IMG/VR virus record: IMGVR_UViG_3300025096_000004
Coordinates: 1 to 64,000 of that record
Source of the DNA: a virus
Strand: one strand, 5' to 3'
Length of the DNA: 64,000 bases
Shown here: one piece after another, positions 7,028-27,182 of the stretch
Layout: every line of letters starts with the position of its first letter
Position numbering within the stretch: the stretch's first letter is position 1
The notes under the pieces: model-generated
Database searches by the model: none
Told to the model about the DNA's origin: nothing
Seen by the model: the letters and a program-made list of their open reading frames with translations, nothing else
Position numbers and translations under genes: made by a program

Positions 7028-7822
7028 GTGTTTAAATACGCTCACGGAGGCGTGGTTAGGTGTTCATTCTGTGGCGTAAGGGGGCATAATATACGATCTT
7101 GTAAAGATGTTGTTATAGCAGCAACTGATGAGGACAATATATCTTATGACGCACAACAGGTTTATAAAGCCAAGTCCGAGTTGGCCAAGCGAACTGCTCC
7201 AAAGTCCAAACAGGTGAACCAAAGAGGTAAACCTCGTTGCGGTTTTTGCCGATCCACAAAGCACAATAGAAAGAATTGCCGAAGAATGAAAAAGTTCAGA
7301 AACAAGCTTTATAAAGCAAATACAAACTGGCGGAAACATTTTGCAAATAGGGCTAACATTCTTGGTGTGGGACAAGGGGCTTTAATAGAGGCATGTGGTG
7401 TGCCTGTAAATGTGTTGGCGAAGTTTAGTGTTTCACCCACCAAGGGAAGTCATATTGGAATCGTAAATGAATATGATTATGACAATTTAAATGTATTTTG
7501 CAATTACTCTGGTTCATATGATTATAGGTCATCGGCAGATGTAACTGCCAAACTAATAACCACCGGCGGTTTGGTAGATATAAGCATAGGGAAATATATT
7601 GGTGAGGATTTGTTTCGTGAAAACACCCTTTTCGCTCATTGGTGCAAGTTTAAAGTTATAAATCGAAAAGAAATACAGTTTTCAAAGAAGTGGCTGGGGG
7701 ATAAGAACATCCCGATGTTGGATTGGTTGCCCCAAACACACAGTTTTGAAGAGTTACAATCGCTTGGCATTGTTGCGTTTTTAGATTATTGGACAAAAAA
7801 TGTCCTCGACAATAATGAATAG
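7028..7822 (+). CDS. Double CCHC zinc-knuckle protein, paralogue 1
   Basis: 264 aa from GTG 7028. Two C-x2-C-x4-H-x4-C knuckles are visible: CSFCGVRGHNIRSC (about residues 12-25) and CGFCRSTKHNRKNC (about 72-85), joined by a basic linker. A conserved C-terminal domain begins MKKFRNKLYKANTNWRK. Zinc knuckles of this type bind single-stranded nucleic acid in retroviral and eukaryotic proteins; RNA or ssDNA binding here is inference. Paralogues lie at 11038 and 15588 with the same architecture. The next promoter's dyad lies inside the last codons of this gene. Confidence 0.8.
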   Translation: MFKYAHGGVVRCSFCGVRGHNIRSCKDVVIAATDEDNISYDAQQVYKAKSELAKRTAPKSKQVNQRGKPRCGFCRSTKHNRKNCRRMKKFRNKLYKANTNWRKHFANRANILGVGQGALIEACGVPVNVLAKFSVSPTKGSHIGIVNEYDYDNLNVFCNYSGSYDYRSSADVTAKLITTGGLVDISIGKYIGEDLFRENTLFAHWCKFKVINRKEIQFSKKWLGDKNIPMLDWLPQTHSFEELQSLGIVAFLDYWTKNVLDNNE

Positions 7823-8042: not shown

Positions 8043-8216
8043 GTGAAAATCGGAGACACCGTTAGGATAAGACCTTCTGGTGAGGTGGGGGTAATTACGG
8101 AAAGTGTAGACCGTGTTATAGGAACACATGTAGACAAATTGCCAAGGTGGGTTGTCCACCTTGCTATAACAATGAGAAATCATATATTTTTAGAGAAGGA
8201 TTTAGAAATAATTTAA
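8043..8216 (+). CDS. MKVGDLV-family small SH3/KOW-like protein
   Basis: 57 aa from GTG 8043 (GGAGG 7 bases upstream). VKIGDTVRIRPSGEVGVIT is followed by WVVHLAITMRNHIFLEKDLEII, which is the family scheme of GD start, GVI strand, VxL strand and a C-terminal L-E-(V/I)-I. First compact member after the zinc-knuckle gene. Function unknown. Confidence 0.65.
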   Translation: MKIGDTVRIRPSGEVGVITESVDRVIGTHVDKLPRWVVHLAITMRNHIFLEKDLEII

Positions 8217-8696: not shown

Positions 8697-8912
8697 ATGG
8701 TACACGGGGTTCACTTGGGTATCATTACTTTGTTTTATGCTCCCCGTGGATTGTGGGTAATAAGGCTTGCACATGACGGACAGGAACTTGCCCTATTTAG
8801 GGATGATTTTGAACCATTAAACTATATGGAGAACAATAATGGAAGAACAGATGACAATAATGGAAAAGTTAAGATATGTTCCCAAGGAGGGGGATGTGTT
8901 GATTTATCTTGA
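8697..8912 (+). CDS. MKVGDLV-family protein, start displaced by promoter
   Basis: 71 aa from ATG 8697 (AGGAGA upstream). In frame just before the ATG the sequence still reads N-V-G-D-L-V, but no start codon precedes it and the -10 box overlaps this stretch, so the canonical N-terminus seems lost. VHLGIITLFYAPRGLWVIRLAHDG matches the family core. The last 25 codons overlap the next gene, and the low-complexity NNNGRTDDNNG tail may be read-through of a lost stop. Confidence 0.5.
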   Translation: MVHGVHLGIITLFYAPRGLWVIRLAHDGQELALFRDDFEPLNYMENNNGRTDDNNGKVKICSQGGGCVDLS

Positions 8913-9084
8913 TGGGTCGCACTTGCAAATCAAAGAGATTAAGAAAACCCACGTTAAACTTGAAAAATCGGGAAGCGGTGAGGATCTTCCTTTGAAGCCC
9001 GTTGCTCACATTAGGTCAGATATGATTAAGAATGAGTGCTTCCTTTGCAGAAGAAAATTGGCGGCACCAAATGAAAACAGGTGA
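8839..9084 (+). CDS. Divergent SH3/KOW-like protein
   Basis: 81 aa from ATG 8839 (GGAGA upstream). VPKEGDVLIYLDGSHLQIKEI is a variant of the family start, and a CFLCRRK motif near the C-terminus adds a CxxC. It ends ...NENR with the 14-base overlap ATGAAAACAGGTGA into the next gene. Confidence 0.6.
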   Translation: MEEQMTIMEKLRYVPKEGDVLIYLDGSHLQIKEIKKTHVKLEKSGSGEDLPLKPVAHIRSDMIKNECFLCRRKLAAPNENR

Positions 9085-9241
9085 TTTGGTAAAAGTACAA
9101 GGACACTGCGTTGAAGAGTATGCCCTGTTGGTAGAAATTGGGGAAAAAGATGGTTGCAATTGGGTGCGGGTTCGCTATTTTGATGGTGAAGAGGAAGTGC
9201 TTCATCCAACACAGGTGAAAAGAGTTAGTGAAAGCAGGTGA
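9071..9241 (+). CDS. MKVGDLV-family small SH3/KOW-like protein
   Basis: 56 aa starting MKTGDLVKVQGHCVEEY. The core GCNWVRVRYFDGEEEVLHPTQV is almost the same as that of the gene at 10166, so these two are recent duplicates. The ATG lies inside the 3' end of the preceding gene and its stop lies in the start of the next. Confidence 0.75.
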   Translation: MKTGDLVKVQGHCVEEYALLVEIGEKDGCNWVRVRYFDGEEEVLHPTQVKRVSESR

Positions 9242-9446
9242 TTTGATATGCTTTGCTTTCAAACCCCCTTTGCGGAGGGTTCCCCCAATGGCAATAGTTG
9301 TCCATGCCTACAAGAGTCATGATTACCTCGAAGGACACGTTGAGGTTGTTTGGATAACTGGTTCGATGGCTGGACAAAGAAAGTGTTACCCCCCTTCAAA
9401 CTTGGTAAAAGTAAAACCGGACATTTTTTGTCCTTTACAACTTTAA
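9228..9446 (+). CDS. MKVGDLV-family small SH3/KOW-like protein
   Basis: 72 aa from GTG 9228, 14-base overlap with the previous member. MKAGDLICFAFK has a proline-rich insertion, then MAIVVHAYK and VEVVWITGSMAG. The last codons run into the operator at 9419, so the C-terminal PDIFCPLQL is read through regulatory DNA. Confidence 0.65.
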   Translation: MKAGDLICFAFKPPLRRVPPMAIVVHAYKSHDYLEGHVEVVWITGSMAGQRKCYPPSNLVKVKPDIFCPLQL

Positions 9447-9491: not shown

Positions 9492-9824
9492 ATGGATGTT
9501 TGGGTAGTTATAGATAGATACGATCACAGTGAACACATTGTTACAGTTCACCTGACCGAAAAGGGTGCAATGATTCACACTTATGGTATTTTGCTTGAGT
9601 CTTATGATGGTATTTGTGATTCTGTCTGGGATGATAGCGAGGACGACGACTTCAAAGAAGAGTACCCCGATGCTTATGAGTTTGTTAAGAAGTATTGTGG
9701 AAACATCGAAGAGGCCAAGCTTGCCGATTTGAGCAAGCATCAAGTTGATTTGACCTGTTTTATTGGAAATGCTACCGACTGGTCAACCGATGTATCAATT
9801 GAACAAACACGGCTGCAAGCATGA
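9492..9824 (+). CDS. Hypothetical acidic protein
   Basis: 110 aa from ATG 9492 behind AAGGAG. It is acidic (WDDSEDDDFKEEYPDAYEF). N-terminal MDVWVVIDRYDHSEHIVTVHL reads as beta strands. No family recognised; the acidic surface could bind a basic partner or mimic DNA, which is speculative. The stop overlaps the next start by 4 bases. Confidence 0.6.
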   Translation: MDVWVVIDRYDHSEHIVTVHLTEKGAMIHTYGILLESYDGICDSVWDDSEDDDFKEEYPDAYEFVKKYCGNIEEAKLADLSKHQVDLTCFIGNATDWSTDVSIEQTRLQA

Positions 9825-9994
9825 AGGTCGGTGATTTAGTGAAACTGATACACAGCCTTTATGGTGGTTATGGCATCATTACCAATATAAGAGACTGGCC
9901 TAACAGTTCCTCCATCTGGTATACGGTTCACTGGCAAAACGGTGTAACACGGGAGACATACGAAGCTGATGAATTGGAGGCAGTATGCAAGTAG
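9821..9994 (+). CDS. MKVGDLV-family small SH3/KOW-like protein
   Basis: 57 aa, MKVGDLVKLIHSLYGGYGIITNI then IWYTVHWQNGVTRETYEADELEAV. Complete family scheme. ATG overlaps the preceding TGA. The stop TAG lies in the start region of the next gene (overlap 10). Confidence 0.7.
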   Translation: MKVGDLVKLIHSLYGGYGIITNIRDWPNSSSIWYTVHWQNGVTRETYEADELEAVCK

Positions 9995-10179
9995 GTGACT
10001 TAATCAAATGGACAGACTATAAAGGTGATACCCCCGTGGGGCATGTTGGCCTACTTATCAAAGACCTAAAGGACTATTGGTCAAACCCATCGGACTGGAA
10101 CGATTTCTACGTCCTTTGTGAAGGTCAGTATGTCTTTTGGACTTCATGGCAATGCGAGGTGTATAATGGAAGTAAATGA
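9985..10179 (+). CDS. MKVGDLV-family small SH3/KOW-like protein
   Basis: 64 aa, MQVGDLIKWTDYKGDTPVGHV. The body keeps GLLIKD and FYVLCEGQYVFW. It overlaps both neighbours by 10-14 bases. The C-terminus YNGSK departs from the usual LEVI ending. Confidence 0.7.
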   Translation: MQVGDLIKWTDYKGDTPVGHVGLLIKDLKDYWSNPSDWNDFYVLCEGQYVFWTSWQCEVYNGSK

Positions 10180-10357
10180 TTTAGTTAAGGTGCGAGGTCA
10201 CTGTGTTGAAGAGTACGCCCTCTTAATTGAAATAGAAGGAAAGAGCGGATGCAACTGGGTACGGGTGCGGTATTTTGACGGGGAGGAAGAGATACTTCAC
10301 CCAACCCAGATAACCCCAGTTAAGAAAACCGGACAAAATATGTCCTCGACAAGTTAA
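10166..10357 (+). CDS. MKVGDLV-family small SH3/KOW-like protein
   Basis: 63 aa from ATG 10166 (14-base overlap), MEVNDLVKVRGHCVEEYALL. It is nearly identical in its middle (GCNWVRVRYFDGEEE) to the protein at 9071. The last ten codons are encoded by the next operator and -35, showing that regulatory DNA was inserted at or replaced the gene end. Confidence 0.7.
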   Translation: MEVNDLVKVRGHCVEEYALLIEIEGKSGCNWVRVRYFDGEEEILHPTQITPVKKTGQNMSSTS

Positions 10358-10401: not shown

Positions 10402-10605
10402 ATGAAAGTCGGTGATTTAATTGGTATCGGATGGAGCGGAGTGTGGAAACAGCCTTTTGTAGCAGTGATAAGAGAGGTACACTGTTTCCGAAAACACATG
10501 ACCAAAAAAGGCGAAATCAGTGGTTATACTGTTTTCATTCCAGCTACAGGAAAAGAAACATTCATAACCCCAAGAGATGTGAGGAGTCTAAATGAAGATA
10601 GGTGA
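10402..10605 (+). CDS. MKVGDLV-family small SH3/KOW-like protein
   Basis: 67 aa, MKVGDLIGIGWSGVWKQ, first gene after module 5. FVAVIREVH and GYTVFIPATGKETFI provide the strands. It ends NEDR with the 14-base overlap into the next member. Confidence 0.7.
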   Translation: MKVGDLIGIGWSGVWKQPFVAVIREVHCFRKHMTKKGEISGYTVFIPATGKETFITPRDVRSLNEDR

Positions 10606-10759
10606 TTTAATAAAATACAAACATCGTTACATAGGGGAGCAATTTGTAGTTGTGGGTATCCGCAATTTCGGTAAAGCTGCCGCTGTGAAGTGCATATCAG
10701 CCAAAACCCTGAAAAAAACCAGATGGTCTTGTTCATCAACTGTTGAGGTACTCGCATGA
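10592..10759 (+). CDS. MKVGDLV-family small SH3/KOW-like protein
   Basis: 55 aa, MKIGDLIKYKHRYIGEQFVVVGI, very basic (Lys/Arg in KTLKKTRW). It ends TVEVLA, with its TGA overlapping the next ATG by 4 bases. Start fixed by the conserved overlap sequence. Confidence 0.7.
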   Translation: MKIGDLIKYKHRYIGEQFVVVGIRNFGKAAAVKCISAKTLKKTRWSCSSTVEVLA

Positions 10760-11037: not shown

Positions 11038-11853
11038 ATGCAATGTGGATATTGTTACAATTACGGACACAACAAAATGGGATGCCCTAAAGCAAAAGAA
11101 AGGGCTGCTACCATCCTACCCCAGTGGGAGCAGTGGCAGAAGATGGAGCATGACAACGACTATGTCAAAACCTCGACATATAAAGCTGCTCGTCACTTTG
11201 AATGGGAATACAAATATCGCGAAGCTCTTGATATACATCTTCAAAAGCAGAAGCGCAGCACAAAAGTTAAGGTTTGCAATTTCTGCGGTCAATCCGGCCA
11301 CAACAAAAGAACCTGCCAAGAGCTTAAAGACTTTAAGGGCGAAATAAAACAAGCAACCATCGCCTATAGAAAGACCGTCATCAATGCTATCTCCGAAACT
11401 GGACAGGGCATTGGCAGCATGTTTACGGGTGAATATTCACATTGGAATCGTCATAAGGGCGAATATGATGAGGGAAAGCAGGGCATCGCTTTGGTTACTG
11501 GTATCAAGTGGCACTTGATTAACTTGGTTGATGTTCGGGAGCATGGAGAAATCAGCCTCAATCGCAGTGTCAGTGAACCTATTTTTGAAGTTAGATGGAC
11601 TCATGGTTTCGTTGAGTCTCATGTTCCGTTTGTCAATTATAGTATTGACAACCAGTCAGTACTAAGTGTCAGTTGGAGAGGCTCAGATAAAAAACTACTT
11701 GCCCCCTCTAAAACTGTAACCCCACCCGACGGTTGGGCAACTTGCGATGATTCGCTTTCCCAACGTCATTTGTCCAAAGTTCTTTCTGGTCGCAAGTCTC
11801 AAAGAAAGAACCAGCTTGAGTACTTTCGAGGAAAAATGAACCAGTGGAAGTAA
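11038..11853 (+). CDS. Double CCHC zinc-knuckle protein, paralogue 2
   Basis: 271 aa, starting directly with the first knuckle CGYCYNYGHNKMGC (residues 3-16) and carrying a second, CNFCGQSGHNKRTC, at about 79-92. The C-terminal domain LKDFKGEIKQATIAYRK aligns with MKKFRNKLYKANTNWRK (7028 gene) and MKTFLVEAYQANENWRR (15588 gene), and a G-Q-G-(I/A) turn follows in each. Likely nucleic-acid binding by established knuckle chemistry; target unknown. Own operator-promoter upstream and another directly downstream. Confidence 0.8.
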   Translation: MQCGYCYNYGHNKMGCPKAKERAATILPQWEQWQKMEHDNDYVKTSTYKAARHFEWEYKYREALDIHLQKQKRSTKVKVCNFCGQSGHNKRTCQELKDFKGEIKQATIAYRKTVINAISETGQGIGSMFTGEYSHWNRHKGEYDEGKQGIALVTGIKWHLINLVDVREHGEISLNRSVSEPIFEVRWTHGFVESHVPFVNYSIDNQSVLSVSWRGSDKKLLAPSKTVTPPDGWATCDDSLSQRHLSKVLSGRKSQRKNQLEYFRGKMNQWK

Positions 11854-12578: not shown

Positions 12579-12586
12579 TATTTTAT

Positions 12587-12727
12587 GGGGATGCCCTGCG
12601 CCAGCGCACACTGGCAATGGGGTTGAAACGGTGGTTCCAGTTGTGCGACTCGCACCGCCTCAGTTGATGGATCGACTGGCTGCACTCAAGGTGTGGTTGG
12701 AGCGTGGGTTCGACTCCCACCATCCCC
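12587..12727 (+). ncRNA. tRNA-like structured RNA, 141 nt
   Basis: The ends form a perfect 7-bp acceptor-like stem, GGGGATG (12587-12593) with CATCCCC (12721-12727). Directly before the 3' strand lies a perfect T-arm, GTGGG-TTCGACT-CCCAC (12704-12720), exactly as in tRNA or tmRNA. Between them, instead of about 45 nt of D and anticodon arms, are about 110 nt with hairpins GCCAG/CTGGC, GTGCG/CGCAC and CAGTTGA/TCGACTG. CCA is not encoded. It could be an intron-bearing tRNA, a degraded tRNA or a new tRNA mimic; it is much too short for tmRNA. No convincing anticodon arm found. Confidence 0.55.
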
Positions 12728-12739
12728 TTTCACTTTTTC

Positions 12740-12811: not shown

Positions 12812-13192
12812 ATGGCTTATTTAAAACCAAACATGACAGTATTCATGGCCAACAACGGCCAGCCCATCTATTCAACAATTGAGAAGATTGCCTTCCGCAA
12901 GTATTGGGGAAAGAAGCGAGACAAGAAAACAGGACTGATGAAAAAAGCAAGAAAATCAATGCCTTATGCGATTTGTACTGTTAAAATGTCATCTGATACC
13001 GACATACCCACGGGGGCGCAATTCACAATCGCTGGCTATCAGCTTCGCAACGTGATTATGAAAGGTGAGAAAATCCTGACCTTCGACCAAAAGTATGTGG
13101 CAGACTTCGCCCAAGAGTACGGTAACAAGTGGGTCAGACGCATGATTATTGAAGAGTTCAAGCATGATGGTGATGACAATGAAAGTCGGTGA
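12812..13192 (+). CDS. Hypothetical protein, head of a small-gene chain
   Basis: 126 aa behind AAGGAG. Basic, with MAYLKPNMTVFMANNGQP, then a Lys/Arg segment (RKYWGKKRDKKTGLMKKARK) and GAQFTIAGYQLRNVIMKG. No family recognised. It ends DDNESR through the 14-base overlap, so it feeds ribosomes into the MKVGDLV chain behind it. Confidence 0.65.
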   Translation: MAYLKPNMTVFMANNGQPIYSTIEKIAFRKYWGKKRDKKTGLMKKARKSMPYAICTVKMSSDTDIPTGAQFTIAGYQLRNVIMKGEKILTFDQKYVADFAQEYGNKWVRRMIIEEFKHDGDDNESR

Positions 13193-13364
13193 TTTGATAA
13201 AAGATAAGATGAGCGAACAAGTCGGCATCATTGTGGCCACCAAGATGGTAAATAATGGGTCTGCCCCCGCCGGTGAACTTGAGCCATATCACCGATGCTT
13301 GGTTGGCAAGGATTACATTTGGTTTTTTGAGATTTCATTGGAGGTCATCAATGAAAATCGGTGA
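13179..13364 (+). CDS. MKVGDLV-family small SH3/KOW-like protein
   Basis: 61 aa, MKVGDLIKDKMSEQVGIIVA; body ends FFEISLEVINENR. First of six members in one unbroken overlapping chain (13179-14197). ATG fixed by the shared ATGAAAGTCGGTGA overlap with the upstream gene. Confidence 0.75.
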   Translation: MKVGDLIKDKMSEQVGIIVATKMVNNGSAPAGELEPYHRCLVGKDYIWFFEISLEVINENR

Positions 13365-13551
13365 TGCAGTAAGAATAACAACAGAGTTTGGGCAATACTG
13401 GCATTATACTGTGGAGATTTCTGGCATGGTCGGAATACTCCTTCGTCTCAATCGAGGGAATGACCAAGCTGAAGTTTATCTTTCCAATGGACAGACCTGT
13501 AAAATTAGTTGCCCCCATGCTTGGTTGGAGGTGTTAAATGAAAGTAGGTGA
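13351..13551 (+). CDS. MKVGDLV-family small SH3/KOW-like protein
   Basis: 66 aa, MKIGDAVRITTEFGQYWHY. VGILLRLNRG and QAEVYLSNGQTCKI provide the strands, and WLEVLNESR closes it. 14-base overlap on both sides. Confidence 0.75.
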   Translation: MKIGDAVRITTEFGQYWHYTVEISGMVGILLRLNRGNDQAEVYLSNGQTCKISCPHAWLEVLNESR

Positions 13552-13714
13552 TTTGGTAAACGTAAGAGACTATGGAGTCGGTGTCATTGCTGATTTTACT
13601 TGGGAGTTTGTTCAGGATGTGCCGTATAAATGGGCTTCCATCTGGTTGATTGCTCAAGAACGCCTAATTTTTACTTCAATTACTTTAGTCGAGGTCATCA
13701 ATGAAAATCGGTGA
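13538..13714 (+). CDS. MKVGDLV-family small SH3/KOW-like protein
   Basis: 58 aa, MKVGDLVNVRDYGVGVIADF, then WASIWLIAQERLIF and LVEVINENR. Same 14-base overlaps. Hydrophobic and aromatic core richer than in its neighbours. Confidence 0.72.
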   Translation: MKVGDLVNVRDYGVGVIADFTWEFVQDVPYKWASIWLIAQERLIFTSITLVEVINENR

Positions 13715-13886
13715 TTTAATTATACGAAAATACGATGGTATGTTAGCCATAGTTATCAACACAGACAGGCTTCACACTGGCCTCGTCACGGTGCAGTACT
13801 ACGCAGTACCCAAAGAAGCTGAATACGGTGGCTGGCACTGTGATGACCTTGCGTCAAGCTGGAGGCTTCAAGATGAAAGTCGGTGA
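13701..13886 (+). CDS. MKVGDLV-family small SH3/KOW-like protein
   Basis: 61 aa, MKIGDLIIRKYDGMLAIVIN, then LVTVQYYAVPKEAEYGGW. It ends RLQDESR; the usual LEV is replaced, but the overlap with the next ATG is kept. Confidence 0.72.
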   Translation: MKIGDLIIRKYDGMLAIVINTDRLHTGLVTVQYYAVPKEAEYGGWHCDDLASSWRLQDESR

Positions 13887-14028
13887 TTTGGTAAGAGATA
13901 CGCAATTCAATGATGTCGGTGTCGTTGTTGAAATTGATGAAGGGGAGAACCTATATAAAATAATATTCCCCAACAGCATGGAATGGCTAACAGATGCTTA
14001 CATCGAGGTGATAAGTGAAAGTAGGTGA
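13873..14028 (+). CDS. MKVGDLV-family small SH3/KOW-like protein
   Basis: 51 aa, one of the shortest members: MKVGDLVRDTQFNDVGVVVEI, LYKIIFPNSMEWL, YIEVISESR. It shows the minimal fold: start strand, GVVVEI strand, third strand, C-terminal IEVI. Confidence 0.75.
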   Translation: MKVGDLVRDTQFNDVGVVVEIDEGENLYKIIFPNSMEWLTDAYIEVISESR

Positions 14029-14197
14029 CTTGGTCAAGTGGACAGCACCGCATCCCCACCCTGAAGACTGCATTATCGGTCTTGTCGAAGCGGTTTGCGA
14101 TAGATATATCTATGTGCGGTGGGCAGATGGCACACTCGATGAATATGAGGTTGAAGACTGGAAATCTAAACGTCTTGATTTGGAGGTGATAAGTTAA
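14015..14197 (+). CDS. MKVGDLV-family small SH3/KOW-like protein
   Basis: 60 aa from GTG 14015 in the 14-base overlap. MKVGDLVKWTAPHPHPEDC is followed by YIYVRWADGTLDEYEVEDW, and it ends LEVIS. It resembles the 17257 gene in the proline and Glu-Asp-Cys-rich first loop, suggesting a copied pair. Last gene of this chain. Confidence 0.75.
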   Translation: MKVGDLVKWTAPHPHPEDCIIGLVEAVCDRYIYVRWADGTLDEYEVEDWKSKRLDLEVIS

Positions 14198-14201
14198 GAC
14201 C

Positions 14202-14244
14202 GGACAGAATATGTCCTCGACAATTCAACCAAACAGGTTACATT
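14202..14244 (+). promoter_or_regulatory. Operator-promoter module 9
   Basis: GGACA-gaata-TGTCC (14202-14216), TCGACA, N16, TACATT (14239-14244). Drives the chain 14275-15513. Confidence 0.85.
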
Positions 14245-14274
14245 ATATACATCACTCAGACAATGGAGGTCACA

Positions 14275-14496
14275 ATGAAAAAAGGTGACTTAATCAGAAA
14301 CAAAAACGATGGCGAGTTCGCCATAATCCTTTCAACCTATACCAAGTTCTTTCAGGACTCCAACTACTCCGGTGAGCATGACTATGGGGTGGCCGACACC
14401 GCTGTCCGTATCAAGTGGATTGAAGGAGGTCATGAGCATACCTTTCAGAGGTCAAAGATGCGTCGAAATTGGGAGGTTCTCAATGAAAGTCGGTGA
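14275..14496 (+). CDS. MKVGDLV-family small SH3/KOW-like protein
   Basis: 73 aa, MKKGDLIRNKNDGEFAIILS from ATG 14275 (GGAGG upstream; the ATG at 14263 overlaps that site). TAVRIKWIEGGHEHTF gives the third strand. It ends WEVLNESR with the 14-base overlap. Heads a seven-gene chain. Confidence 0.75.
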   Translation: MKKGDLIRNKNDGEFAIILSTYTKFFQDSNYSGEHDYGVADTAVRIKWIEGGHEHTFQRSKMRRNWEVLNESR

Positions 14497-14656
14497 TTTA
14501 GTAAAGGTTAGGGGCATTAGCCAGAAGAGGTTGGGGCTTGTGGTTGAGATCCCACCCCATGATGACTATTGGGGAGATACTGCTGTTGTAGAATGGCTTT
14601 GTGGCTTTAGAGAAGAGCTAACCCAAGATAGAGTGGAGGTTGTATCATGCAAGTAG
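14483..14656 (+). CDS. MKVGDLV-family small SH3/KOW-like protein
   Basis: 57 aa, MKVGDLVKVRGISQKRLGLV, then TAVVEWLCGFREEL and VEVVSCK. 14-base overlap upstream, 10-base overlap downstream (ATGCAAGTAG). Confidence 0.75.
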   Translation: MKVGDLVKVRGISQKRLGLVVEIPPHDDYWGDTAVVEWLCGFREELTQDRVEVVSCK

Positions 14657-14859
14657 GCGATTTAGTTAAGTTCCGCTATATCTATAGCGGTTGTGACTTG
14701 AACGATAAAAAAGCCCTGTACTTGGGTGAAGCTTTCATCCATCGGAATGATGGTATCGTCGTTGAGAATCATAAGATTCTTGAGATTGGAGCCACAAAGC
14801 CAACAATCGTCGATTCTGGTTTGCTCAAGTACATGGAGGTTATCAATGAAAGTCGGTGA
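14647..14859 (+). CDS. MKVGDLV-family small SH3/KOW-like protein
   Basis: 70 aa, MQVGDLVKFRYIYSGCDLND, with a longer middle (DGIVVENHKILEIGATKP). Ends YMEVINESR. Overlaps both neighbours. Confidence 0.73.
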   Translation: MQVGDLVKFRYIYSGCDLNDKKALYLGEAFIHRNDGIVVENHKILEIGATKPTIVDSGLLKYMEVINESR

Positions 14860-14995
14860 TTTAGTTAAAGACCAGCACGGCAACACCGGAATCATTACAA
14901 AGGGATACTGGGGAAACCATAAACATTGGTGGGTTCATTGGACTCATGGCGGCTCAAATACAATCCACGAACGATGGTTGGAGGTGATAGCATGA
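14846..14995 (+). CDS. MKVGDLV-family small SH3/KOW-like protein
   Basis: 49 aa, the shortest member: MKVGDLVKDQHGNTGIITKG, HWWVHWTHGGSNTI, WLEVIA. Stop and next ATG overlap as ATGA. Confidence 0.73.
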   Translation: MKVGDLVKDQHGNTGIITKGYWGNHKHWWVHWTHGGSNTIHERWLEVIA

Positions 14996-15156
14996 AAGTC
15001 GGTGATTTAGCAATGACCCACAGGGGCAACCTTTGCGTTGTGGTCGAGGTCGGCAAAAACATTTGGGGTCGAATCGACTGGTACAACATTGTTTTCAGTT
15101 CTTCTGGATACCTACGCACCGGATACCCTGCCCACTGGCTACGGAGGCACCGATGA
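14992..15156 (+). CDS. MKVGDLV-family small SH3/KOW-like protein
   Basis: 54 aa, MKVGDLAMTHRGNLCVVVEV, GRIDWYNIVFSSSGYL, ending HWLRRHR. Basic C-terminus replaces the LEVI ending. 4-base overlaps on both sides. Confidence 0.72.
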   Translation: MKVGDLAMTHRGNLCVVVEVGKNIWGRIDWYNIVFSSSGYLRTGYPAHWLRRHR

Positions 15157-15359
15157 AAGTAGGTGATTTAGTAAGATTTACCGACAAAGGAACATATTCA
15201 AAATGGTTCTATTGCAGATATGCAAAGATTGAGAGTGTGAGCAAATGCAAAGCACATCTTCGTGTAAGATGGATTTTTCCTGTGAAATATTATGATAGAT
15301 GGACAACAATATCTGACTTTGGCGCAGATAAGTTTGAGGTCATCAATGAAGGTCGGTGA
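15153..15359 (+). CDS. MKVGDLV-family small SH3/KOW-like protein
   Basis: 68 aa, MKVGDLVRFTDKGTYSKWFY; strongly basic middle (KIESVSKCKAHLRVRWIFPVKY). Ends FEVINEGR with the 14-base overlap. Confidence 0.73.
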   Translation: MKVGDLVRFTDKGTYSKWFYCRYAKIESVSKCKAHLRVRWIFPVKYYDRWTTISDFGADKFEVINEGR

Positions 15360-15513
15360 TTTGATAAGGTCAAAAATGAATAATGGACTTCTTGGCATCA
15401 TTAAGGAAGCCTATGACTCTCCGAAGGGATTGTGGATAATCCATTGGATGGACGGTGGAACCTTTCATTCAGGGTCTTTGGCTCATGAGAACAATTTTGA
15501 GGTAATAAGTTAA
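15346..15513 (+). CDS. MKVGDLV-family small SH3/KOW-like protein
   Basis: 55 aa, MKVGDLIRSKMNNGLLGIIK, WIIHWMDGGTFHS, FEVIS. Last gene of the second chain; its stop is 2 bases before module 10. Confidence 0.74.
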   Translation: MKVGDLIRSKMNNGLLGIIKEAYDSPKGLWIIHWMDGGTFHSGSLAHENNFEVIS

Positions 15514-15587: not shown

Positions 15588-16421
15588 ATGAACATATTTG
15601 AAAACAACGGAAGTGGCCGAAGCACATCAGCTTGCGGCTATTGCAGAACCACCGGACACGACATTAGGGACTGCCCACAGGTTCCCAAAGATTATGCCTA
15701 TTGGAAAGACTACAAAGTACCGCTTCAAGCTGGCAATCCCTGTCGCTGGTTCGCTGCTAATCAGCCCAAGTACTGGGGCGAGTGGTACACCAAGTGCATC
15801 AACGCCATGCACAGACAGCTTGAATATCAAAAGAAGAAGAACCAACCAAAAGTTAAGCGCACCTCTTATCCTCGTTCTTGCGGCTTCTGCGGTGAACTTG
15901 GACATACCCGTCGAAAGTGTCAGAAGATGAAGACCTTCTTGGTCGAAGCTTATCAAGCCAATGAGAACTGGCGACGAAAAGCCTATGAAGCTTTGGTCAA
16001 CAATCTTGGTATTTCTGTCGGTGCTGCTATAAAAGTTAAGAAAAGTGCTGGGTATCACTACGGTGCAGAGGCAACAGAGCATGTAGCCTTGGTGTCTTCG
16101 GTCAATTGGGATAAGTTAAACCTGTCCTGTGCCAATCAAACATGGGAAGACCAGTGGAGACAGCACCTCAGTGTGGAAGTCCTTCTCAACGGTCAAACCC
16201 TCACACTAAGGTTTGCAGACAGACTGCTTGAACCTGTTTTCCGTCACATTTCTGGCTATAGTGGTGTCACTTATCTTGATAAGGTCGCCCCTGCTCCAAA
16301 GCCCCTTGATGAGTCTTGGGTCACTGACTACAAAGAAGCTTTCGACTTCATCGCAAAGAAGCGCAGCTATGAAAGGCTTGAGCAAGCGGGTATCGTCGCT
16401 CTTGTCGAGAAGTGGAAATAA
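15588..16421 (+). CDS. Double CCHC zinc-knuckle protein, paralogue 3
   Basis: 277 aa. Knuckles CGYCRTTGHDIRDC (about residues 17-30) and CGFCGELGHTRRKC (about 99-112), followed by the shared MKTFLVEAYQANENWRR domain and a C-terminal region present in all three paralogues. The inter-knuckle linker is aromatic (YWKDYK, YWGEWY) unlike the basic one in paralogue 1. All three genes head their own operator-promoter, spaced about 4 kb apart. Nucleic-acid binding is inferred from the knuckles. Confidence 0.8.
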   Translation: MNIFENNGSGRSTSACGYCRTTGHDIRDCPQVPKDYAYWKDYKVPLQAGNPCRWFAANQPKYWGEWYTKCINAMHRQLEYQKKKNQPKVKRTSYPRSCGFCGELGHTRRKCQKMKTFLVEAYQANENWRRKAYEALVNNLGISVGAAIKVKKSAGYHYGAEATEHVALVSSVNWDKLNLSCANQTWEDQWRQHLSVEVLLNGQTLTLRFADRLLEPVFRHISGYSGVTYLDKVAPAPKPLDESWVTDYKEAFDFIAKKRSYERLEQAGIVALVEKWK

Positions 16422-16495: not shown

Positions 16496-17257
16496 ATGAC
16501 AGCAAAACAACAACAACTTGCCCTCATCCAAAAAACCATCGAAGCTGCCGACAAGCTTGGCAACAAAAGGGATGTTTACACTCTGGGTTCTCTCCTGCGC
16601 TATCGACAAAAGCGAAAGCTGTCCCACCGTCAGGAAGACTTCTTAAAGAAGCTAATCCAGCGCAACGATGAGTCTGCATTGAAGGCACTGGCTGATAAAA
16701 ATGCAGAGTGGGAGCGTGAATGGCGAAGCAACGATGAATTGAGGGCAAAGGCCGAGGTCATTGCAAATTATTATTTGACCACGACCTACTATAATGTACC
16801 TGCTCGAAAGGTCATTCAATGGCGCAAGATTGAAAGCTTTACAGCCCACTCAGAAGAAGAGAAGAGCGAGTTGTATGCAGACTGTCTCCCTCCGAAGCGT
16901 CAGGTTTTGAGAATGGTTAACAACAAGTATGCTGAGAACGTATGGCAAAGCCACAATGCCGAGCCTAAATGGAAGGTCGGTGACATGGTAGCTATCCGCA
17001 AGTCTTATAAAGGAACCCTTAACCTTGGAAACAAAATCGCCACAAGCCATTGGCATGGCAAACAAGGTTTCCCGATGTTCGATGAATTGAGCTATTTGAT
17101 TGTAGCAGTGGATTCAAAGCCAATCAGTGAGTCTCTCAAGTACGACAAGAGCCGAGGTGGTTGCAGATATTACAAACTGCTACCCGTAGGCTACCCTACC
17201 CCCGTGGATGTCATGGAGTGTAACCTAAAGAAGCTTCTCAAAAAACAGGTGAGCTAA
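16496..17257 (+). CDS. Hypothetical protein with C-terminal GD-x-V segment
   Basis: 253 aa from ATG 16496; the frame is open upstream through the promoter but ATG 16412 would precede it. N-terminal helical region (TAKQQQLALIQKTIEAADKLG, SHRQEDFLKKLI), middle QRNDESALKALADKNAEWERE. The C-terminal third begins WKVGDMVAIRKSYKG and continues YLIVAVDSKP, so a KOW/SH3-like module is fused to a helical domain. This may show the ancestral context of the small paralogues. Stop overlaps the next MKVGN start (TAATG). Confidence 0.7.
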   Translation: MTAKQQQLALIQKTIEAADKLGNKRDVYTLGSLLRYRQKRKLSHRQEDFLKKLIQRNDESALKALADKNAEWEREWRSNDELRAKAEVIANYYLTTTYYNVPARKVIQWRKIESFTAHSEEEKSELYADCLPPKRQVLRMVNNKYAENVWQSHNAEPKWKVGDMVAIRKSYKGTLNLGNKIATSHWHGKQGFPMFDELSYLIVAVDSKPISESLKYDKSRGGCRYYKLLPVGYPTPVDVMECNLKKLLKKQVS

Positions 17258-17451
17258 TGAAAGTCGGTAATTTAGTTACATGGTCGGAACCCTCCCCGTA
17301 CCCCGAACAATGTCAGCTTGGTGTGATTATAACAATCGAAGCTTGTACGATTTGTCCAGAAGACCAGTACGTCCAGATTCAATGGGCAGATGAGGAGAAA
17401 GGCAGCAGCAGGTCATGGGAACAAGTCCAAGACATAAAGGTGATAGCATGA
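17257..17451 (+). CDS. MKVGDLV-family small SH3/KOW-like protein
   Basis: 64 aa, MKVGNLVTWSEPSPYPEQCQ, YVQIQWADEEKGSS, ending IKVIA. The first loop resembles that of the 14015 gene. 4-base overlap with the next gene. Confidence 0.73.
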   Translation: MKVGNLVTWSEPSPYPEQCQLGVIITIEACTICPEDQYVQIQWADEEKGSSRSWEQVQDIKVIA

Positions 17452-17657
17452 AAGTCGGTGATTTAGTTAAATACAAGACAACTGGTGACATGGGCTTGAT
17501 TATTCGGATGGAGACAAAGCCAGCTTTGCCAACCGATAGAGAATGGGTTTATGTGGCATGGATAGGCCAAGAAGGTCAAGCCACTCGATGGCGATGGGGT
17601 CGAGAACTCTCAGGGTATCCCAAAGCAGACTTGGAGGTCATCAATGAAGGTCGGTGA
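17448..17657 (+). CDS. MKVGDLV-family small SH3/KOW-like protein
   Basis: 69 aa, MKVGDLVKYKTTGDMGLIIR, WVYVAWIGQEGQATRWRW, ending LEVINEGR with the 14-base overlap. Trp/Arg-rich third strand. Confidence 0.74.
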   Translation: MKVGDLVKYKTTGDMGLIIRMETKPALPTDREWVYVAWIGQEGQATRWRWGRELSGYPKADLEVINEGR

Positions 17658-17823
17658 CTTGGTTAAAATCGAAACTTATCGCAACAGTGGCGACATTGAA
17701 GCAATTGGAATACTTTTGAAATACGATCTCGTCCGAGCGCGAGCCACTGTTCATGTTACTGATGGAACCCAGCAAAATGTTCCAGTCGGTCTGATTTCGA
17801 GGTATCGTAATGAAAGTCGGTGA
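17644..17823 (+). CDS. MKVGDLV-family small SH3/KOW-like protein
   Basis: 59 aa, MKVGDLVKIETYRNSGDIEA, ATVHVTDGTQQNVPV, ending RYRNESR. 14-base overlap with both neighbours. Confidence 0.72.
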   Translation: MKVGDLVKIETYRNSGDIEAIGILLKYDLVRARATVHVTDGTQQNVPVGLISRYRNESR

Positions 17824-17989
17824 TTTGGTATCAGCCCCGAAGAGTCAATTTGATGACTTTGACATGAAGCAGTTCTTTGGTTTGGTTGTCTGGACGGATG
17901 GCTACAAGGTCACTCTTCTTGTCGATGGGCTGGAAGAAACATGGACAACCTTTGACCTCAAAGCGATAGGCGCAAAGGTCATAAGTTAA
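17810..17989 (+). CDS. MKVGDLV-family small SH3/KOW-like protein
   Basis: 59 aa, MKVGDLVSAPKSQFDDFDMK, FGLVVWTDGYKVTLLVDG, ending AKVIS. Acidic first loop. Last of the chain; stop 3 bases before module 12. Confidence 0.72.
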   Translation: MKVGDLVSAPKSQFDDFDMKQFFGLVVWTDGYKVTLLVDGLEETWTTFDLKAIGAKVIS

Positions 17990-21954: not shown

Positions 21955-22151
21955 AGATAGGAAGCTTGGTAAGGTTCAACCCACCGCTTGGAGCATCCGA
22001 ATTGGGTGAACTGTTCATGGTTATTGGGAAGCGTCCAGCAATTTCGCTGAAGAGCGGAGGCGCATGTCCGGAAGCTGTGAAGTGTGTATCGGTTAAGACC
22101 GGAAAGAAAACCCCGTTCGTTCGCACCACTCGCCTCAGTGTGTACGCATGA
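21951..22151 (+). CDS. MKVGDLV-family small SH3/KOW-like protein
   Basis: 66 aa, MKIGSLVRFNPPLGASELGE, MVIGKRPAISLKSGG, ending LSVYA. ATGA overlaps at both ends. Confidence 0.68.
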   Translation: MKIGSLVRFNPPLGASELGELFMVIGKRPAISLKSGGACPEAVKCVSVKTGKKTPFVRTTRLSVYA

Positions 22152-22315
22152 AGGTGGGTGATTTGGTTAGGCCGTGGAAAGCACAACGAGCAATCGGTCT
22201 TGTGGTCGAGGTCATAAATAAAAAAGAAGTAAAGGTTCAATGGATAGGAAAGAAGAATCAATTGATGTATGCCTATCAGAAACATAAGTTAGAGGTGATT
22301 AATGAAAGTAGGTGA
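22148..22315 (+). CDS. MKVGDLV-family small SH3/KOW-like protein
   Basis: 55 aa, MKVGDLVRPWKAQRAIGLVV, EVINKKEVKVQWIGKKNQL, ending LEVINESR with the 14-base overlap. Compact and highly basic. Confidence 0.74.
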   Translation: MKVGDLVRPWKAQRAIGLVVEVINKKEVKVQWIGKKNQLMYAYQKHKLEVINESR

Positions 22316-22490
22316 CTTGGTAAGGTATGTAAGGGGAGAAGCAGCCAAAGGTTTCGATATGAATGTGATTGGTCTGGTTATCAATGTAGGGAATGACCCA
22401 CTAAGAAACAATAGACCATCTGCTCGTATCCACTGGTTGAATGACTCATGGTCTGTGGAAGCACAGAAGATATTGGAGGTGCTTGCATGA
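22302..22490 (+). CDS. MKVGDLV-family small SH3/KOW-like protein
   Basis: 62 aa, MKVGDLVRYVRGEAAKGFDM, IGLVINVGND, ARIHWLNDSWSVEA, ending LEVLA. 14-base overlap upstream, 4-base overlap downstream. Confidence 0.74.
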   Translation: MKVGDLVRYVRGEAAKGFDMNVIGLVINVGNDPLRNNRPSARIHWLNDSWSVEAQKILEVLA

Positions 22491-22660
22491 AAGTAGGTGA
22501 CCTTCTTCGGAGCAAAGACACTGGTCTTATTTGCATAATAAAGAGGATAGAAAAGCCCAAGGAAAGAGGCGGTGTAACTTTATTCTTTTTAGACTGTCAG
22601 TCAATTGTCTGTGGCTATTGGAGTAGGGAAGTGATAACTGATTTTTATCATTTGACCTGA
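22487..22660 (+). CDS. MKVGDLV-family small SH3/KOW-like protein, last of the series
   Basis: 57 aa, MKVGDLLRSKDTGLICIIKR, VTLFFLDCQSIVCGYW. The C-terminus differs (ITDFYHLT). After its stop the DNA changes to a 900-base stretch without clear genes. Confidence 0.7.
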   Translation: MKVGDLLRSKDTGLICIIKRIEKPKERGGVTLFFLDCQSIVCGYWSREVITDFYHLT

Positions 22661-26846: not shown

Positions 26847-27182
26847 ATGAAATATTTGCTATTATTGACATTAATGGGGTGTGGCAAGGCCAATCTTATT
26901 AAAAAAGCTCGAAGTCAATTTGCAAATGATGTAAATTGCATTCTTGTTCTTAGAGAACAAGTTGAAAAAACCGGATGCAAAGCATTGCAAGTTGAATACA
27001 GAAAAAAATCGACACTTATTCGATGCAAAAGGCCGGACGAAGAGCGAGGACCGTTTTGGGATAATTATGTTTTTAAAATTTCATCAGCAAAACAGAGAAT
27101 CGGTCAAGAATTTCTTCCAGAAATTGAAAAACATACCATTTGCATTGATAAAAATATTCGAATTGAGGCATATGCTCCATGA
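26847..27182 (+). CDS. Small putative lipoprotein
   Basis: 111 aa from ATG 26847 behind GGAGG (a TTG lies one codon upstream). MKYLLLLTLMGCGKANL has a lipobox-like LMGC, so lipid attachment at Cys12 is predicted. The mature part has four further Cys, possibly disulfide bonded in the periplasm. No family recognised. ATGA overlap with the next gene. Confidence 0.65.
   Translation: MKYLLLLTLMGCGKANLIKKARSQFANDVNCILVLREQVEKTGCKALQVEYRKKSTLIRCKRPDEERGPFWDNYVFKISSAKQRIGQEFLPEIEKHTICIDKNIRIEAYAP

Follow-up and report, generated by a model that had tools for sequence, protein, structure and literature searches.

How can a virus gain, lose and reorder small genes when the end of one gene is also the beginning of the next? 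The question is raised by the first 64 kb (positions 1 to 64,000, hereafter the window) of IMG/VR virus record IMGVR_UViG_3300025096_000004, which is 191,495 bp long. Between 8.0 and 22.7 kb the window holds runs of small open reading frames (ORFs), all on the + strand and mostly of 49-77 aa, whose products begin with M-K-V-G-D-L-V and often end in L-E-V-I-(S/N); at many of their boundaries the last 14 nucleotides of one gene are also the first 14 of the next. Gene overlaps are usually put down to compaction or translational coupling. Here the coding overlap appears to double as a standard connector, at which genes are also joined and exchanged. The reading that we favour, and consider likely, is that single cassettes are shuffled without scars by recombination at their overlapping coding ends, in a way that is integrase-free as proposed, no search for an integrase having been made.

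A standard junction read in two frames

The sequence-only reading of this DNA had listed 16 copies of a constant 14-base overlap. All 16 are indeed exact 14-nt stop/start overlaps, with ...(N/S)-E-S-R-stop upstream and M-K-V-G-D downstream, the copy at 10166 being a weak one. The word constant holds for these 16 of the 28 family starts in the window and fails for the rest: six starts have a 4-nt overlap (ATGA; 9821, 14992, 15153, 17448, 22148 and 22487), two a 10-nt overlap (9985 and 14647), one a 1-nt overlap (17257), and three have no overlapping upstream ORF (8043, 10402 and 14275). Allowing up to three mismatches, the 14-mer occurs 34 times in the window, whereas in 100 dinucleotide shuffles it averages 7.0 occurrences and never exceeds 16.

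Conservation extends beyond these 14 nt. Its consensus from -12 to +21 of the start, TgGAGGTnaTcA(A/G)TGAAAGTCGGTGATtTgGTnA, spans about 33 nt, and of the 45.6 bits of information found over -15 to +24, 24.4 lie within the 14-mer. Read in one frame, this junction element encodes L-E-V-I-(N/S)-E-S-R-stop; in the other it provides a Shine-Dalgarno (SD) sequence, a start codon and M-K-V-G-D-L-V. The SD of the next gene, GGAGGT, itself codes for the C-terminal 'LEV' strand of the preceding protein. Because an SD-like motif is present at 91% of the 14-nt junctions, translational coupling across them is a plausible candidate role for the overlap. Proteins at run ends stop at E-V-I-S followed by TAA (14197 and 15513) or at K-V-I-S (17989), and in the structural model described below the sole residue with a predicted local distance difference test score (pLDDT) under 70 is the last one (block mean 68). 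Since run ends lack E-S-R and the model is least certain at its last residue, E-S-R seems to be a tail carried along as a passenger, and for the most part a side effect of the second reading frame.

Related loci were collected from viral contigs with a protein search and a DNA-pattern search; counts from this collection are lower bounds and the sampling is not unbiased. It comprises at least 138 loci with at least 1,104 distinct cassettes. The 14-nt overlap is present at 743 of the 1,104 collected family starts, compared with 11 of 990 adjacent non-family ORF pairs in the same loci, and among the matches listed a further 171 starts have a 4-nt and 16 a 10-nt overlap.

Cassettes are exchanged singly, with joints concentrated in the junction element

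Whole-cassette gain, loss and reordering, which had been predicted from the window, were all seen in comparisons across loci, and the cassettes move singly. Orthologous cassettes were defined by at least 70% DNA identity; this and other thresholds and the flank scores are simple choices, which were checked against nulls. In 111 non-redundant loci, the ends of alignment blocks inside arrays fell at -15 to +24 of a start in 708 of 912 cases on the left and 710 of 876 on the right, where about 210 and 200 were expected. Block ends thus lie in the element in 78-81% of cases against 23% expected, and the random scatter of joints inside genes that had been named as evidence to the contrary is not the pattern found.

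Neighbouring sequence gives a second view of the same process. Orthologous cassettes that are 90-97% identical have a homologous left flank in 13% and a homologous right flank in 37% of cases, and over the whole range of 70-97% identity the figures are 10-13% for the left flank and 14-37% for the right. Genes of these loci that lie outside the family keep a homologous left flank in 35-100% of pairs, a share that rises with identity (for instance 47-74% at 80-90% identity). Where orthologues have unrelated neighbours, identity remains at the background of about 0.27 up to -13 and is about 0.8-0.9 beyond about +22, with the other side mirroring this. Over about -2 to +17, the variable bases of the element go over by degrees from tracking the upstream gene to tracking the downstream one: at -12 they follow the downstream lineage at 0.13 and the upstream one at 0.72, and at +15 the values are 0.87 and 0.33.

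For 29 junctions both parental forms were found elsewhere. In 18 of these the crossover can be bounded with no more than one site in conflict, and the rate of inconsistency per informative site is 0.08, compared with 0.23 for random triples. The expectation that such joints would lie in the 14-mer was borne out in part. Ten of the 18 crossovers overlap it, four lie just upstream and four just downstream, and the zone of exchange is better described as the ~33-nt element. The resolved examples show no small insertions or deletions. One locus (L038) lacks a cassette that another (L023) has, and the two differ cleanly by this single cassette, the switch falling within the 14-mer: L038:6898 equals L023:6695 over 60 nt to GTGCAA and L023:6867 from CGGTGA on. 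L023:6405 and L038:6590 mark a one-cassette replacement, whereas the cassette at L015:8478 reappears, moved, at L049:8330 with 96% identity in a comparison of the core; at the junction L049:8523 the parent switches from L015:8671 to L015:11720 between bases 0 and +3. Similar cassette exchanges are found in L135/L153 and L036/L040, and four cassettes common to L024 and L049 stand in rank order 16, 8, 4, 18 between collinear flanks. Cassettes that move change overlap class, which confounds a comparison of shuffling between 14-nt and 4-nt junctions. From these sequence comparisons, exchange of cassettes at the junction element appears very probable.

Two near-identical contigs differ in another way. 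In L030:8300-9060 and L031:8300-8920 the sequence after the array-end spacer has been replaced; as this difference follows a run end and does not lie inside a run, it is uninformative on the overlap. The spacer carries a tRNA T-arm-like sequence, although ARAGORN finds no tRNA there.

A possible mechanism and its alternatives

We propose that the array consists of interchangeable gene cassettes, each of which would code for one small SH3-like (KOW-type) barrel. The 5' end of every cassette would be a standard junction that combines the SD (coding for the preceding LEV strand), the start, M-K-V-G-D-L-V and, in another frame, the previous stop. General recombination between any two junctions, in the same genome or with another virus in a mixed infection, could then swap, add or remove one whole cassette without leaving a scar, and both neighbours would retain their reading frame, ribosome-binding site and stop. 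Whole-cassette exchange would be possible because all cassettes begin and end with the same ~33-nt coding element. Exchange at such short homology would presumably be served by the phage's own RecA/UvsX-type system; a RecA-family gene is present in the same 191,495-bp record.

Similar arrays could also arise if illegitimate recombination were random and only whole-gene products survived, with the element kept for its SD, start, structural N-terminus and stop; with no space between genes to fall into, breakpoints would then show up at the overlap. For phage mosaic joints in general, illegitimate recombination is the preferred explanation (PMC3029335), and the element is under clear coding and SD constraints. 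For example, GTT at codon 3, which would place Trp in the upstream tail, has a frequency of 0.8% in cassettes with the 14-nt overlap and of 13-17% otherwise; this loss, restricted to cassettes where Trp would enter the upstream tail, argues for coding constraint. However, joins made by illegitimate recombination would be expected to fall out of register often, whereas the switches of parentage are spread across the element, overlap bases included, and without small indels in the resolved examples. Moreover, GTC still occupies codon 3 in 57-65% of the cassettes without a 14-nt overlap, against a background of 21%, and GGT occupies codon 4 in 64-72% of them, against 30%. The spread of the switches and the excess of GTC outside the 14-nt overlaps favour homology, and short homology may well be a cause that guides exchange, which we consider somewhat probable. 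Selection acting alone is an unlikely explanation in our judgement; homology and constraint probably both act.

Several observations weigh against recombination guided by the junction. Selection alone would also purge breakpoints inside genes, and the position of breakpoints is no proof of guidance by homology. Exact identity is shared over stretches of only about 14-25 nt, which is short for classical RecA recombination, and roughly one alignment end in five falls inside a cassette body, reflecting divergence or internal recombination. Variants of the element within a locus are barely more alike than those between loci (0.585 vs 0.556, a difference beyond permutations but tiny), which gives little sign of ongoing homogenisation; concerted evolution within genomes, the idea tested by this comparison, is not taken as support. 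Finally, the sequences compared all come from metagenome assemblies.

Repeats in mixed viral populations can yield chimeric contigs, and with data that are all metagenomic it might be argued that assemblers joined unrelated cassettes at the short repeat. The exact repeats, however, are shorter than the final k-mers that metagenome assemblers usually reach, and reading frames and SDs are unbroken across the joins. The same array orders also recur across different IMG sample numbers (L011/L012, L015/L016 and L019/L020), and in the first two of these pairs the order is the same in separate contigs (99.9%). An artefact of this kind is highly improbable. We find it very unlikely, too, that the arrays are static tandem duplications within each lineage, in which the 14-mer would reflect ancestry and the economy of overlapping phage genes, with little exchange between viruses. 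Members do have the same start motif and, to judge from the modelling, the same fold, and the window contains one duplicate pair (9071-9227 and 10166-10322), which is 72% identical in DNA with the similarity ending at the junction. Yet the family members are paralogues that for the most part share 22-55% identity with the reference member, near-identical cassettes sit in otherwise different contigs beside different neighbours, and 14-nt overlaps are rare in the other gene pairs of the same loci.

On a wider scale, large T4-like viruses may trade single SH3-like effector genes through the standard junction as a population-wide system, scarless, of high rate and integrase-free (as proposed, with no integrase search made), and so maintain a fast-evolving arsenal against diverse hosts or their defences. 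This is a tentative proposal, to which we would give rather less than an even chance. Junction exchange would offer a concrete and testable answer to how large phages turn over many small unknown genes.

Relation to known exchange systems

Integron cassettes are single-gene units that are held in arrays, exchanged whole and lack a promoter of their own. The arrays described here likewise consist of single-gene units without promoters of their own that are exchanged whole, but no attC-like site fits between overlapping genes, there is no scar or spacer, and the junction codes for protein in two frames. Among T4-like phages, promoter-early stem-loops (PeSLs), composite promoter-terminator motifs between genes, have been reported to mediate gene shuffling (Arbiol et al. 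2010 and Comeau et al. 2014, both as cited in PMC4503421). As far as these citing passages describe PeSLs, they are short repeats in T4-like genomes at the boundaries of gene shuffling, as is the junction element; the latter differs in that it codes on both sides and lies inside an operon, with an SD and a start in its consensus and not a promoter. Short boundary sequences have also been proposed as a basis of phage mosaicism, but most mosaic boundaries are said to lack an identifiable one (PMC3029335). The junction element resembles them as a short sequence common to otherwise unrelated modules, with the joints of exchange located there, and differs in being one standard element, met with hundreds of times both inside single genomes and in different viruses. 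What is new relative to the PeSL and boundary ideas is an element that codes in two frames and recurs as one standard connector. Our literature searches on cassette exchange at overlapping junctions returned nothing specific, and the string MKVGDLVR was not found in the literature searched.

Fold and possible function of the cassette proteins

An AlphaFold2 model of the member encoded at 13873..14028, built on an alignment of 69 sequences, is a five-strand SH3-like barrel with a pLDDT of 95.8. The nearest solved structures are an archaeal Spt5 KOW domain (MjSpt5, Z 9.3), the SH3 domain of MutS2 (8.9), PsaE and NusG (8.3), and the alignment profile matches Spt5 KOW chains at E 9e-5. The Pfam KOW model PF00467 matched one of the 69 members (E 0.003), a Pfam scan of ten window members gave nothing above cut-off, and Pfam and PHROGs searches of family members gave no convincing single-protein assignment. 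The modelled fold is held in common with KOW/SH3-like barrels such as Spt5, the NusG C-terminal domain and uL24, and with the N-terminal domain of T4 MotB, an early protein with a predicted KOW domain (PMC7827196). In contrast to such proteins, the cassette products are single-domain, 49-77 aa long, heavily paralogous and, by charge, not uniformly nucleic-acid-binding.

Uniform nucleic-acid binding was examined as the default common function and rejected, since net charge across the family scatters from -8 to +5 (5th to 95th percentile). Such a spread speaks against one nucleic-acid role and for varied partners. In cassette bodies of orthologous pairs, the ratio of non-synonymous to synonymous substitution rates (dN/dS) is 0.16, and the proportion of non-synonymous differences (pN) is below that of synonymous ones (pS) in 142 of 146 pairs; the cassettes therefore behave as real proteins under purifying selection. 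The proteins may be early-made, fast-turnover factors that act on the host or its defences, a suggestion that we place just short of even. It would fit the hairpin-promoter elements at the heads of runs, the small size, the high turnover and the purifying selection. A large and almost unannotated family in rapid exchange would, because of that exchange, be a good place to seek host-takeover or anti-defence proteins.

Distribution of the family

The record encodes a gp23-type major capsid protein (E 8.9e-62), the criterion by which it counts as T4-like, and this protein is at most about 44% identical to its top-listed phage matches (uncultured phage, Flavobacterium and Microcystis phages). A profile built from the 69 members finds 26 family genes in the 8.0-22.7 kb part and one more at 175.5 kb of the record. 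Elsewhere, among the matches listed, gp23 is present in 26 of the 31 array-bearing contigs longer than 100 kb, all 31 of which carry 7-32 family members. In a set of 50,697 phage records, tblastn with two members and megablast of the region found no match, and the 38-nt junction gave chance-level partial matches only. Cassette arrays are also carried by three contigs of bacterial metagenome-assembled genomes (L172, which is CP070664.1, L170 and L171), and are there probably viral sequence binned with bacteria; one of these records is labelled as a candidate WOR-3 chromosome, and one title names Tara Red Sea.

Gene order and other features of the window

The family genes of the window, all on the + strand, begin with a 57-aa SH3-like cassette (M-KIGDTV...LEII; 8043..8216) that starts without overlap. 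The 56-aa member of the duplicate pair (9071..9241) starts in a 14-nt overlap with ORF 8839-9084 and leads through the 14-nt overlap 9228-9241 into a 72-aa cassette (9228..9446). Cassettes of 57 aa (9821..9994; start overlap 4 nt) and 64 aa (9985..10179; start overlap 10 nt) precede the other member of the pair, MEVNDLV... (10166..10357), whose 14-nt overlap (10166-10179) holds the weak 14-mer copy ATGGAAGTAAATGA. A 67-aa cassette (10402..10605), with no overlapping upstream ORF, follows the promoter element at 10328 as the first of its run and is joined by the 14-nt overlap 10592-10605 to one of 55 aa (10592..10759).

The main chain opens with a non-family ORF of 126 aa (12812..13192, +), whose end, DDNESR-stop, forms the first 14-nt junction (13179-13192). 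Through this and further 14-nt overlaps follow cassettes of 61 aa (13179..13364), 66 aa (13351..13551; overlap 13351-13364), 58 aa (13538..13714; 13538-13551), 61 aa (13701..13886; 13701-13714), the structure-modelled member of 51 aa (13873..14028; 13873-13886) and a 60-aa cassette (14015..14197; 14015-14028) with which the run ends at EVIS-TAA. Behind the promoter element at 14199, a 73-aa cassette (14275..14496) heads the next run, with no overlapping upstream ORF. It is followed by cassettes of 57 aa (14483..14656; 14-nt overlap 14483-14496), 70 aa (14647..14859; start overlap 10 nt) and 49 aa (14846..14995; 14-nt overlap 14846-14859), the last of which ends in LEVIA-stop and overlaps the next by 4 nt, then by those of 54 aa (14992..15156) and 68 aa (15153..15359), each with a 4-nt start overlap, and of 55 aa (15346..15513; 14-nt overlap 15346-15359), where the run closes with EVIS-TAA. 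A later run comprises cassettes of 64 aa (17257..17451; start overlap 1 nt), 69 aa (17448..17657; 4 nt), 59 aa (17644..17823; 14-nt overlap 17644-17657) and again 59 aa (17810..17989; 17810-17823), ending in KVIS-TAA. The most distal three are of 55 aa (22148..22315; start overlap 4 nt), 62 aa (22302..22490; 14-nt overlap 22302-22315) and 57 aa (22487..22660; 4 nt).

At the heads of operons, including several cassette runs, stands a 73-nt repeat that combines a hairpin with a sigma70-like promoter, CGGACA-N5-TGTCCTCGACAA...GTTATATTATATA, with one copy at 14199..14271 (+). There are at least 13 copies between 6789 and 21157, all on the + strand, nine of them full-length (10328, 10962, 11854, 12737, 14199, 15513, 16421, 17990 and 18243); an exact-pattern copy was found in none of the other collected loci. 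With their look of an early promoter and stem-loop, their non-coding nature and their place at run heads, these repeats resemble PeSLs as characterised in the passages cited above.

Between the runs, at 7028-7822, 11038-11853 and 15588-16421, lie three proteins of similar appearance that carry two zinc-knuckle motifs of the CxxC type (like CGYCxxxGHxxxxC); none of the three matches a PHROG, and a search with one of them gave matches in the same lineage only. A tRNA/tmRNA-like element at 12586-12728 (+) has a 7-bp acceptor-like stem, GGGGAUG/CAUCCCC, and a T-arm, and its match to the tmRNA model is weak (17.6 bits against a gathering score of 47). Further along, over 27179-47800 (+), otherwise different proteins, at 27179, 29171, 32566, 38682 and 47110, have a common N-terminal leader (such as MKLTxEQLxxIIKEE or MKxLMExWRxYLxE), perhaps a sorting or capsid-targeting signal.

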